From: Arcobacter cloacae
Lineage (GTDB): Bacteria > Campylobacterota > Campylobacteria > Campylobacterales > Arcobacteraceae
DNA: 64,000 nucleotides
Direction: 5' to 3'
NCBI RefSeq assembly: GCF_013201935.1
Contig: NZ_CP053833.1
Location: forward strand, 2,356,001-2,420,000
Of the stretch, positions 52,514 through 63,243 are shown piece after piece (positions within the stretch are counted from its first letter, which is position 1; each line of letters starts with the position of its first letter). The notes beneath the pieces are model-generated. The model saw only the letters and a program-made list of their open reading frames with translations, was not told where the DNA came from and searched no databases. Made by a program: the position numbers and the translations under genes.

Positions 52514-52674
52514 ACTCTCTCCTTAAATATTCGCGCAATTATATACTTTTTATCTTATATAACATATTAAGCCTCTTATAAGCTTCGATTTTATGGGAGT
52601 ATTCTCACTAAATAATAATATTTTAAATCACTAAAATATCAGTTTTTTAACTATTAATTAACATAAAATAGATA

Positions 52675-52680
52675 CAATAT
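52675..52680 (+). promoter_or_regulatory. Candidate -10 box for the 52704-55752 operon
   Basis: TACAAT at 52675-52680, within AGATACAATATT, lies 29 bases before the apparent ATT start at 52704. The 190 bases between it and the DksA-like gene are otherwise AT-rich without visible genes. Confidence 0.4.
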
Positions 52681-52703
52681 TTTTTATTCAAAAGGAGTTT
52701 AAT

Positions 52704-52955
52704 ATTACAGCACTATCTAAAAAATTTATAGTTTTAATTTTTTTATTAATTTCTATTTTTTTATATCTTTTTTTAATTTATTCAAATAACGACAGAAACA
52801 ATAATTCAAAAATCAGTGCAATTACAAAACTACCAAATATATCTTTTTCAAACAATTTATTCGAACCTAGAATAAAAGAGTATAAAGATGATTCTACAAA
52901 ATTATATTTTGTACCTTTTCAAATCTCTTATTTGGATTTTACTTATGAAAAATAG
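52704..52955 (+). CDS. Small membrane-anchored protein with an apparent ATT start codon
   Basis: A perfect ribosome-binding site, AAAGGAG (52691-52697), sits six bases before ATT at 52704. The frame then runs 83 codons to TAG at 52953-52955, with no in-frame ATG or GTG after the ATT and only a late TTG. It encodes a helix of about 20 hydrophobic residues (FIVLIFLLISIFLYLFLIYS) and a periplasmic tail with ISFSNNLFEPRIKEYKDD and VPFQISYLDFTYEK. Its stop overlaps the permease start by 11 bases. It is thus the first gene of the ABC-type operon, perhaps its periplasmic adaptor. I recognise no family. Confidence 0.7.
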   Translation: MTALSKKFIVLIFLLISIFLYLFLIYSNNDRNNNSKISAITKLPNISFSNNLFEPRIKEYKDDSTKLYFVPFQISYLDFTYEK

Positions 52956-54123
52956 TGTATTTCTAAATTTTTTATTTTTACTATTAATTAAACATAAGTC
53001 AAAACATATTGCGATTTTCATTATTTCAATAATCATTGTTTTTTTATCAGCTTCTGTTTTATTTTTATCAAGTAGTTTAAAAAAAGAGATTTTTCAAACT
53101 TTAGAAAATCAAAATGATTTTATTATTCAAAAAATAAATAATGGAAAAGTTATTGATATTCCAACTTCATGGATTGAAGATTTTTCTTTAATAAATGGTA
53201 TTTCAAAAATCGAGCAAAGAGTTTATGGTTCTTACTATTTTATGCCAGAAAATGTTTATTTTACTATTGTTGGGGTTGATTTATTTGAAGAACATACCAA
53301 TAAAAATATAAAAGAACTTCTTAATATTTTAAATATCTCTGATTTTTTAGAACAAGATTCTATGTTAATTGGAAATGGTGTAAAAAAACTTTTTGATAAA
53401 TATCACTATTTTGATTCTTATGATTTTAAATTATTTAATAAAGATATAAAAAATGTAAAAATATTTAAAGATTTACCAAAAGAGATGAATTTAGTTGCAA
53501 ATGATTTAATAATTATGGACATAACTCTTGCAAAAGAGATTTTAAATATAAAACAGAACGAATCTTCAGATATAGTGTTAAATGTGCCAAATGATTTAGA
53601 AAAACAAAATATAAAAGAACAATTATTATTAAAACACTCAAATATAAGAATTTTAGAAAAAGAAGATTTGAAAAAAATGTATGAAAATATGTTTAACTAC
53701 AAAGGTGGAATTTTTCTAATTCTTTTTATTGTTGTACTATTTACTTTTGTATTGATTTTATATCAAAGATATTCAATGATTAGTTCAAATGATAAAAGAG
53801 AAATTGGTATTTTAAAAGCTGTTGGTTGGAGTATTAAAGATATTATTAAACTAAAAATTATGGAAAATTTTTTAGTTGCTTTCATAGCATTTTTAGTAGG
53901 AATTATTATTTCATATATCTTTGTTTTTATTTTAAATGCACCTTTATTAAGAAATATATTCATAGGTTTTTCAAATATACAAAATGATTTTACAATCTTT
54001 ACGAATATTGAAATTAGCACTTTAATCACACTATTTCTATTTTTTATGATTCCTTTCTTAAGTGCTGTGTTAATTCCTGTTTGGAAAATTGCTATTATTG
54101 ATTCTACAAAGAGTATGAAATGA
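52945..54123 (+). CDS. FtsX/MacB-type ABC transporter permease
   Basis: 392 residues from the ATG at 52945; an in-frame ATG at 52888 would add 19 residues that lie over the small upstream gene. There is one N-terminal helix (about 20-42), a periplasmic domain of about 200 residues, and three helices in the C-terminal part. The cytosolic loop SSNDKREIGILKAVGWSIKDIIKLKIMENFLVAF is the FtsX coupling helix. Such permeases extract lipoproteins or lipids or transmit force across the membrane. Its stop overlaps the ATPase start (ATGA). Confidence 0.88.
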   Translation: MKNSVFLNFLFLLLIKHKSKHIAIFIISIIIVFLSASVLFLSSSLKKEIFQTLENQNDFIIQKINNGKVIDIPTSWIEDFSLINGISKIEQRVYGSYYFMPENVYFTIVGVDLFEEHTNKNIKELLNILNISDFLEQDSMLIGNGVKKLFDKYHYFDSYDFKLFNKDIKNVKIFKDLPKEMNLVANDLIIMDITLAKEILNIKQNESSDIVLNVPNDLEKQNIKEQLLLKHSNIRILEKEDLKKMYENMFNYKGGIFLILFIVVLFTFVLILYQRYSMISSNDKREIGILKAVGWSIKDIIKLKIMENFLVAFIAFLVGIIISYIFVFILNAPLLRNIFIGFSNIQNDFTIFTNIEISTLITLFLFFMIPFLSAVLIPVWKIAIIDSTKSMK

Positions 54124-54791
54124 TAAAAATAAAAAATTTAAATAAACTATTTTATGAAAACAGTAAAAAAGAGTTTTATGCACTAAAAGATATAAATTTA
54201 GAGATTCAAACTTCTTCTTTTGTTGTCCTAAAAGGAGTTAGTGGAAGTGGGAAATCTACTTTACTTTCATTAATTGCAACAATGGATAAACCAACAAGTG
54301 GAGAGATTATAATAGATAATGAAAGTGTTGCAAAACTTCCTGATTTACACAGCTCTAACTTTAGAGCTAAAAAAATAGGTTTTATTTTCCAATCATATAA
54401 TCTATTTAACGAATTAAGTGTAAAAGATAATATTTCCATTCCACTTATTCCCCTAGGATACTCTCAAAAACAAATAGATGAAAAAGTTTTAAAAAGTTTA
54501 GAAATTGCAAATATTTCCCACAAAAAAGAGGAATTAGTATTAAATCTTTCAGGTGGAGAAAAACAAAGATGCGCAATAGCAAGAGCTTTAGTGAATGATT
54601 CAAATATTATTCTTTGTGATGAGCCAACTGCAAATTTAGATTATGATAACTCTATTAGATTTATAGAAACCCTAAAAGAATTAAAAAAACTTAATAAAAC
54701 TATTATTGTAGCCACGCACGACCCTATTTTTGATAATCTTGATTTTGTTGATAAAATTATAAATATAAAAAATGGAATAATTTGTGAATAA
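54120..54791 (+). CDS. LolD/MacB-type ABC transporter ATPase
   Basis: 223 residues. Walker A is GVSGSGKSTLLSLIATMDKPTSG, the Q-loop is IFQSYNLFNELSVKDNI, the signature is LNLSGGEKQRCAIARAL, Walker B is NIILCDEPTANLD, and the H-loop is IIVATHD. It pairs with the FtsX-type permease. It overlaps the eight-helix membrane protein gene by eight bases. Confidence 0.94.
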   Translation: MIKIKNLNKLFYENSKKEFYALKDINLEIQTSSFVVLKGVSGSGKSTLLSLIATMDKPTSGEIIIDNESVAKLPDLHSSNFRAKKIGFIFQSYNLFNELSVKDNISIPLIPLGYSQKQIDEKVLKSLEIANISHKKEELVLNLSGGEKQRCAIARALVNDSNIILCDEPTANLDYDNSIRFIETLKELKKLNKTIIVATHDPIFDNLDFVDKIINIKNGIICE

Positions 54792-55752
54792 TATACTTTT
54801 TTCAAACGAAGTAATTATATTTTTGTTTGTTCAAATAATTCTATTTATTTTATTGGCTATTGCATTTTATTTTTCGATTTCTATTATAAAAAATTGGGAT
54901 TTTACTAAAACAACAAATAAACAATACAAACTTGAAAAAACTTCATATCTTGTAATTTTAATAATTAGTTTTACGTTAATTGTAAAAATCTTTTTATTTC
55001 CATATTTTGCTTATAGTTTAGATAATTTATCAAATATTGTTCCAGGTGCTATGTGTGCTGCTGGAATTGTAGGGGCAAATGAATTCGGACAAATAAATCT
55101 TTTTCTAAAAATTTTAATTCTATTTTTTATTGGTATTTGGCTAATTATAAATTCCCTTGATTTAAAAGAAAAAACCTATCCATACACAAAGAAAAAATAT
55201 CTTTTATACGTTTTTATTTTCATATTATCAATTCTTGAGTTATTCCTAGATTTCTCATTTTTAAATAATATATCTTTAAAAGAGCCTGTTATGTGCTGTT
55301 CTGTGATATTTGGTGTAAATAATACAGAAACAAAAATTCCTTTTGATTTATCTATAAATACATTATTGATAGTTTTTTATCTTTTATATTTATTGACTAT
55401 TTTTTTAAATCTTCAAAAATTATCTTTTTTAAATCTTATTACTAACTTTATGTTTTTATATATAGGATATTATGCGGTAACTTACTTCTTTTCAACTTAT
55501 ATATATCAACTTCCTACTCATCAATGTCCTTTTTGTATGCTACAAAAAGAGTATTTTTTCATTGGATATCTTATTTGGGGAAGTTTATTTTTAGGAACTT
55601 TTTTTGGTATTTCAAGCTATATTCTAAAAATATCAATAAACAAAGATTTATTATATACCTATAAATACTCTTTTATCTTTAACTTGATTTTTGTTTTTTT
55701 ATGCTCTTTTTATGTGATTAGATACTATTTTGTAAATGGAGTATTTCTATAA
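54784..55752 (+). CDS. Eight-helix membrane protein with three periplasmic cysteine motifs
   Basis: 322 residues from a GTG start. Eight helices are predicted (about 9-34, 54-79, 105-124, 139-160, 190-211, 217-243, 257-282, 295-316). The loops at 80-104, 161-189 and 244-256 carry MCAAG (Cys91), MCCSV (Cys171, Cys172) and CPFC (Cys248, Cys251). The lysine-rich loops lie on the other side, so by the positive-inside rule all three face the periplasm. The first two resemble one another (P-x2-M-C-x3-I-x-G-x-N), and CPFC looks like a thioredoxin or DsbB-type redox centre. I infer a metal- or thiol-handling role with the ABC proteins. No family is recognised. Confidence 0.75.
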   Translation: MNNILFSNEVIIFLFVQIILFILLAIAFYFSISIIKNWDFTKTTNKQYKLEKTSYLVILIISFTLIVKIFLFPYFAYSLDNLSNIVPGAMCAAGIVGANEFGQINLFLKILILFFIGIWLIINSLDLKEKTYPYTKKKYLLYVFIFILSILELFLDFSFLNNISLKEPVMCCSVIFGVNNTETKIPFDLSINTLLIVFYLLYLLTIFLNLQKLSFLNLITNFMFLYIGYYAVTYFFSTYIYQLPTHQCPFCMLQKEYFFIGYLIWGSLFLGTFFGISSYILKISINKDLLYTYKYSFIFNLIFVFLCSFYVIRYYFVNGVFL

Positions 55753-62287: not shown

Positions 62288-63243
62288 ACTAAAACTCCTA
62301 AAATTAATACAATAATTATAAATATATCTAAACGATTTCTAAGCCCTAAAGCTTTTAAAACATCGCTATTTTCTATATTTTCTTTTCCATCTCCAAAAAA
62401 AGGTTTATTTTTTATCTTTCCAAAATAAGAAGTTGGACCGCCTAGTTTAACATTTATAGCTAGTGCAAAAGCTGATATTGGATAACCTGCATTTATGCTT
62501 TCATGTTTTTTTCCATATTTTCTAAACTCTAAAAATGCTTTTTTACTAAAAAATAGTAAAGCTATTAAAATAGCTGTAATTCTTGAAGGAATAAAATTTG
62601 CAACATCGTCAAGTCTAGCAGAGAATTTACCAAATCTTTCATATTTTTCATTTCTATATCCAACCATAGAATCAAGGGTATTTATAGCTTTATAAATAAA
62701 CGCTCCAACTATTCCAAAACATAAAAGATAAAAAAGTGGTGCAATTACTCCATCACTTAGGTTTTCAGCATAAGTTTCAATAGCGGCTTTATTTATTTGA
62801 CTATCATTTAAATCTGATGTATCACGACTAACTAACATAGAAATTTTTAGTTTTTTTTCTTCTAAACTTTCACTTGTTACAACCTCTTTTACACTATCAT
62901 AAAGCATTTTAGAAGCCATTGTAAATGATGCTAAAAATCCTTGAACAAAAATATTATCAAACAAAGATAAAAAATATGAGATTATAAAAACTATAAATAA
63001 AAGAGAAATTGTTAAAATAAAACCTCTAAAAACAGAATCCTTATAAAACTTCTTTTGAAACCAAGAGATATAATTTCCCATCAAAATAATCGGATGTTTA
63101 AAAAACTTAACTTCCTCATACTCTTTAAAAATCCTATCTAAAATATATGCTATCAAAGCTACTTCATAAAACATTGAACTTACAAATTTCCTATCTTTAA
63201 ATTTTTTATTAGTGATATAATGAATCAATTGAAATAGTATCAT
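62284..63243 (-). CDS. cobD: Adenosylcobinamide-phosphate synthase
   Basis: 319 residues, several membrane helices. YAENLSDGVIAPLFYLLCFGIVGAFIYKAINTLDSMVGYRNEKYERFGKFSARLDD-type residues (positions about 165-215) are the CbiB/CobD signature, joined by AGYPISAFALAINVKLGG. The enzyme joins aminopropanol phosphate to cobyric acid in cobalamin synthesis. Family members usually start near MFYEVALIAYILDRIF, which is residue 24 here (ATG at 63174). The longer start at 63243 has no better ribosome-binding site. Confidence 0.9.
   Translation of the reverse strand: MILFQLIHYITNKKFKDRKFVSSMFYEVALIAYILDRIFKEYEEVKFFKHPIILMGNYISWFQKKFYKDSVFRGFILTISLLFIVFIISYFLSLFDNIFVQGFLASFTMASKMLYDSVKEVVTSESLEEKKLKISMLVSRDTSDLNDSQINKAAIETYAENLSDGVIAPLFYLLCFGIVGAFIYKAINTLDSMVGYRNEKYERFGKFSARLDDVANFIPSRITAILIALLFFSKKAFLEFRKYGKKHESINAGYPISAFALAINVKLGGPTSYFGKIKNKPFFGDGKENIENSDVLKALGLRNRLDIFIIIVLILGVLV

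Follow-up and report, generated by a model that had tools for sequence, protein, structure and literature searches.

A predicted near-cognate start codon paired with a strong Shine-Dalgarno sequence opens an FtsX-like ABC transporter operon in Arcobacter cloacae and its relatives

INTRODUCTION

To our knowledge, very few bacterial genes retain start codons other than ATG, GTG and TTG. A stretch of Arcobacter cloacae DNA (64 kb; contig NZ_CP053833.1, positions 2,356,001 to 2,420,000; hereafter the window) raises the question whether another such gene lies directly upstream of an ABC transporter permease, and what would keep its start codon non-canonical. The original prediction, made from the sequence alone, was that a hidden gene starting with ATT opens this operon. 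Here, we describe the evidence that the frame is a gene, the position and conservation of its start, and the likely consequences for the operon that follows.

RESULTS

A small conserved gene precedes the permease

The operon consists of the following genes.

52704–52955, + strand: gene 1, an 83-aa single-helix membrane protein with a conserved N-terminus, (I)TTLSK, and C-terminus, DF(V/I)YE (evidence: homologs, dN/dS, predicted structure)
52945–54123, + strand: gene 2, FtsX-like (MacB/LolC-type) ABC permease (PF02687, E=6.8e-13)
54120–54791, + strand: gene 3, ABC transporter ATPase (LolD/FtsE-like; PF00005, E=5.3e-34)
54784–55752, + strand: gene 4, 322-aa multi-helix membrane protein with invariant MCAA, MCCS and CPFC motifs

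The frame of gene 1 opens with the codons ATT ACA GCA CTA TCT AAA and closes with a TAG at 52953–52955, 83 codons after the onset of ATT. As had been predicted, it is devoid of ATG and GTG, and its single TTG is codon 77 of 83. We fetched the orthologous loci using the downstream FtsX-like permease as the query, and found a small frame directly upstream of the orthologous permease across Campylobacterales. A contig scan gave eight close loci, those of an Aliarcobacter sp. and Arcobacter caeni among these. The ITTLSK N-terminus is kept in the close relatives, and the homologs generally share a single hydrophobic stretch and a C-terminal sequence of the F(V/I)Y type. The original prediction had left the decision to homologs and substitution patterns, and both came out in its favour: similar peptides are widespread and constrained, with dN/dS values of 0.11–0.53 in 13 closely related species pairs, computed without the portion that overlaps the permease. 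The proposed membrane helix was also recovered, as AlphaFold gave one confident helix at residues 6–27, the remainder of the protein being of low confidence. No Pfam or NCBIfam family matched gene 1 above the cut-off.

We also scanned the whole 64 kb for SD-led frames starting with ATT, ATC, ATA, ACG or CTG. Gene 1 was the sole long frame that far exceeded its canonical alternative (83 codons versus 7). Because it is the only such long frame in the window and is conserved across dozens of species, it is not a chance occurrence; judged from these sequence comparisons, gene 1 is a real gene under purifying selection, and one that is missed by ordinary gene finders. The scan also returned a 42-codon SD-led ATT frame at 62596–62724 that has no canonical start at all, which may be due to chance.

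Overlapping junctions and neighbours of the operon

The stop of gene 1 overlaps the permease ATG at 52945 by 11 bases, exactly as predicted, and an overlap of 8 or 11 nt between the two genes is present in each of the 51 relatives with a near-cognate start (described below). The mechanical longest ORF would place the permease start at 52888; we rejected this start, as the ATG at 52945 is conserved and is an ATG in 51/51 relatives. The permease stop and the ATPase start form an ATGA overlap, which is the same in eight relatives, and gene 4 overlaps gene 3 by 8 nt. The Shine-Dalgarno sequence (SD) of the permease is weak, with a mean duplex energy of -3.65 versus -7.48 for gene 1, and a residual SD of GGA type precedes the permease in many species.

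Both the permease and the ATPase domains score above the Pfam cut-offs (PF02687 and PF00005), which defines the locus as an FtsX-like ABC transporter operon. The two proteins fall below the NCBIfam equivalog cut-offs for lolCE (21/362 bits), LolD (182/308) and MacB (20 and 152/966). For gene 4, neither a Pfam or NCBIfam match nor a significant fold match was found. A gene with a NosL-type motif precedes the small gene in several related genera (in one locus, L033:327-1037, it matches PF05573 with E=5.6e-30), and this neighbourhood hints at copper handling. The operon of the window has no NosL gene upstream; a DksA/TraR-like gene on the opposite strand faces it. Three loci (L066, L067 and L070; genera g12 and g19) carry an additional permease copy that is divergent and is accompanied by a shorter, ATG-started small protein, which is 61 aa long in L066 and L067.

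The start codon is near-cognate in two families

The elements around the start of gene 1 are listed below.

52646–52662, + strand: direct repeat TTTAAC-N5-TTAAC with an 11-bp period, lying immediately before the -10 element and conserved in most of the same-family upstream regions
52671–52678, + strand: probable -10 element GATACAAT, ending 25 nt before the start codon (evidence: TANAAT conservation)
52691–52697, + strand: Shine-Dalgarno sequence AAAGGAG, six bases (TTTAAT) before the ATT, a conserved spacing
52704–52706, + strand: ATT, the predicted start codon and a near-cognate of AUG (evidence: the codon-1 column in 38 same-family genomes)

We aligned gene 1 from 38 genomes of the same family that have a near-cognate start. 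In codon 1, the first base was A in 38/38 and the second was T in 38/38, while the third was T in 21, C in 13, A in 4 and G in none, so that the codon is never ATG; the codons preceding it are variable. Three of the genomes with ATA belong to genus g2 (L027, L034, L035); these calls rest on the SD spacing and the three aligned species, and in L034 an in-frame TTG directly adjoins the SD. When the family was searched with a DNA pattern that left the third base free, 22 sites were returned, one per genome; each carried ATT or ATC, and ATG did not occur. From a second family (f7) come 13 genomes, seven with ATC or ATT at codon 1 and six with ACG. The latter form one clade, in which ACG is invariant (6/6) and the neighbouring positions vary. 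Altogether, 51 genomes have near-cognate starts (23 ATT, 18 ATC, 4 ATA and 6 ACG), the calls in L033 and L121 being ambiguous between two adjacent near-cognate codons.

The rows compared also include 40 homologs with canonical starts. ATG or TTG is found in more distant relatives and in genus g12 of the window's own family, and the outgroup homologs have ATG at about the same place; in many f6 outgroups, an Ile codon comes directly after the ATG or TTG (MIKP, MIRP, (L)ITK). These canonical start codons, too, are predictions, made by visual inspection of the frame. The hidden ATT-started gene that had been proposed is therefore borne out by constrained homologs and by ATT, ATC or ATA in 38/38 same-family rows. 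The accompanying suggestion that homologs might start with ATG, TTG or ATT understated the case, as a non-canonical start is kept in two families, ACG included.

The upstream frame points to the same codon. An in-frame stop abuts the ATC in L020, L100 and L101, most of the other rows have one no more than a few codons away, and between this stop and codon 1 an in-frame ATG, GTG or TTG is absent in almost all rows. In L018 and L097, the frame has no ATG, GTG or TTG anywhere. In nearly all Aliarcobacter/Arcobacter rows, a TANAAT motif ends 23–27 nt ahead of codon 1, with a few exceptions (g2, L021) in which none stands at this spacing. As the -10 element of the window ends 25 nt before codon 1, a leader of about 15–20 nt is predicted, and within a leader of this length no upstream AUG was seen in the Aliarcobacter clade. 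A transcribed upstream AUG is therefore unlikely in this clade. An upstream canonical start for gene 1 was thus ruled out by the adjacent stops and the promoter position. On comparison across the relatives, the translation start is assigned to the ATT at 52704. The direct repeat next to the -10 element is a possible response-regulator box, and it resembles an OmpR-type site.

Codon 1 also differs in composition from the Ile codons of the permease, ATC being enriched and ATA depleted, where the relatedness of the rows makes simple p-values overstate the difference. On the permease tree, the near-cognate state requires five changes. Within the near-cognate class about 11 codon changes were counted and none to ATG, a result that is statistically weak and on which we do not rely; given so few codon changes, the absence of ATG could conceivably have arisen by drift alone.

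The strong SD accompanies the near-cognate codon

The original prediction also placed AAAGGAG six bases before the ATT, and this is what is found at 52691–52697, followed by TTTAAT. AGGAG or AAGGA occurs at exactly this spacing of 6 nt in 47/50 scored near-cognate rows, and within the ACG clade AGGAG lies 6 nt before the ACG in four of the six genomes. A strong SD is present in 49/51 near-cognate rows versus 4/40 canonical rows, a difference for which simple p-values are overstated by the phylogenetic relatedness of the rows. L041 and L129 were excluded from the spacing score, and their starts were set by hand for the strong-SD count. Mean anti-SD duplex energies, calculated with L041 excluded and with the corrected start of L129, were -7.48 kcal/mol for near-cognate gene 1 and -3.6 for the canonical rows. 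As the ATG/TTG relatives are mostly without an SD, the codon and the SD change together: the permease tree provides only three well-supported independent contrasts, and the two change jointly in 2.7 of the 3 on average. There is essentially no RNA structure at the start of gene 1 (MFE -0.8 kcal/mol).

DISCUSSION

We consider it likely that gene 1 is a real gene with an ATT start and a strong SD, that the weak codon paces the operon at a low level, and that selection has kept this pairing. The ATT at 52704 would be read by initiator fMet-tRNA, AUU being one mismatch away from AUG. The strong AGGAG six bases upstream would bring the ribosome to this codon, and the weakness of the codon, against which IF3 would discriminate, would cap the initiation rate of gene 1. 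Because genes 2–4 each overlap the preceding gene, this one rate could pace the entire small-protein/permease/ATPase/membrane-protein operon at a low level. The permease overlap in 51/51 relatives and the weak permease SD make the operon probably paced by the near-cognate start; given the residual GGA-type SD, translational coupling of the permease to gene 1 may be partial. Selection would maintain the combination of a strong SD and a near-cognate codon, with the codon drifting among ATT, ATC, ATA and ACG and not to ATG; in relatives carrying ATG, the SD is usually weak or absent.

With somewhat less assurance, we favour the view that the conserved unit is a near-cognate start together with a strong SD and no particular codon, AUU, AUC, AUA and ACG interchanging over two families, and that this unit is a throttle of the coupled ABC transporter operon, the AUG relatives being without the SD. 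The ACG start would then be the first clade-conserved one in bacteria known to us.

Other explanations have to be weighed against the selected low set-point. The same gene with the same ATT start could be actively regulated, its output rising when IF3 is low or fidelity is relaxed, in the manner of infC or sigR. AUU, AUC, AUA and ACG are all single-mismatch codons outside AUG/GUG/UUG, the class that is repressed by IF3 (PMC5472188); initiation at the AUA of Staphylococcus aureus ccpN is also medium-dependent (PMC13009471). However, nothing in the sequence ties the operon to IF3, infC of the window's genome appears to start with TTG, and the SD trade-off with the ATG relatives suits a fixed set-point equally well. 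We regard such regulation as unlikely. A neutral relic without any regulatory benefit, in which a strong SD made up for the loss of ATG and the overexpression that ATG would now cause bars the way back, appears less likely still. It would account for the absence of ATG and the presence of the SD in nearly all near-cognate rows, and the f6 outgroups, in which Ile follows the ATG or TTG, look as if the start had shifted one codon downstream. The persistence over two families and many speciations is harder to reconcile with a relic, as are the preferences at codon 1, which are unlike those of internal Ile codons.

It is very improbable that translation starts elsewhere, at an internal TTG or ATG, at an upstream start or by frameshifting from another frame, the ATT being an ordinary conserved Ile codon. 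In some species, a TTG or ATG does occur internally within the first 25 codons, and in L129 of the ACG clade the upstream frame is open and has an ATG. Against these stand the stops adjoining the codon upstream, the frames of L018 and L097 without any canonical codon, the good SD spacing to the ATT codon only, and a promoter too near for an upstream AUG.

The pairing of a weak codon with a strong SD, kept by selection as a low set-point, is thus the reading that we prefer. Dozens of natural replicates are available for gene 1, covering four near-cognate codons and accompanied by matched ATG relatives, so that the set-point, the IF3 sensor and the frozen accident can be tested directly against each other. 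Start rules can hide genes of this type and also mis-start the next gene, at 52888 instead of 52945 in this case.

A literature search turned up no report of non-AUG initiation in Arcobacter, and the main text of a profiling paper on Campylobacter jejuni (PMC11955535) makes no mention of AUU or NosL. The kind of start is already known from infC, pcnB, sigR, cvfC1 and ccpN. In Escherichia coli infC and pcnB (cited in PMC13009471 and PMC5472188), AUU initiation limits translation, as we propose for gene 1; infC, however, is autoregulated by its own product, whereas the gene 1 product is a predicted membrane protein beside a transporter. The infC of the window's genome (L079, G000:C1:180537-181034) has an apparent TTG start, not ATT, with GGGAG 6 nt upstream. 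Streptomyces sigR resembles gene 1 in having a non-canonical start with an extensive RBS, in being the first gene of a pair and in its partial downstream coupling (PMC5472188). It differs in that its codon is GTC instead of AUH/ACG, that it sets a sigma/anti-sigma ratio, and that repression of the GTC start by IF3 has been demonstrated (PMC5472188). Further parallels are S. aureus cvfC1 (AUU) and ccpN (AUA), which have a conserved near-cognate start and a strong SD like gene 1 (PMC13009471), cvfC1 being likewise a small protein that opens an operon; in poor medium, AUU/AUA starts with strong SDs in this organism reached about 10% of the level obtained with AUG (PMC13009471). These are unrelated proteins of Firmicutes, with one codon reported for each, whereas gene 1 interchanges four, and unlike them gene 1 has ATG relatives that are mostly without an SD. 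As far as we could find, gene 1 itself is new, and so are the drift of its start among four near-cognate codons, one of them ACG, and the trade-off between codon and SD.
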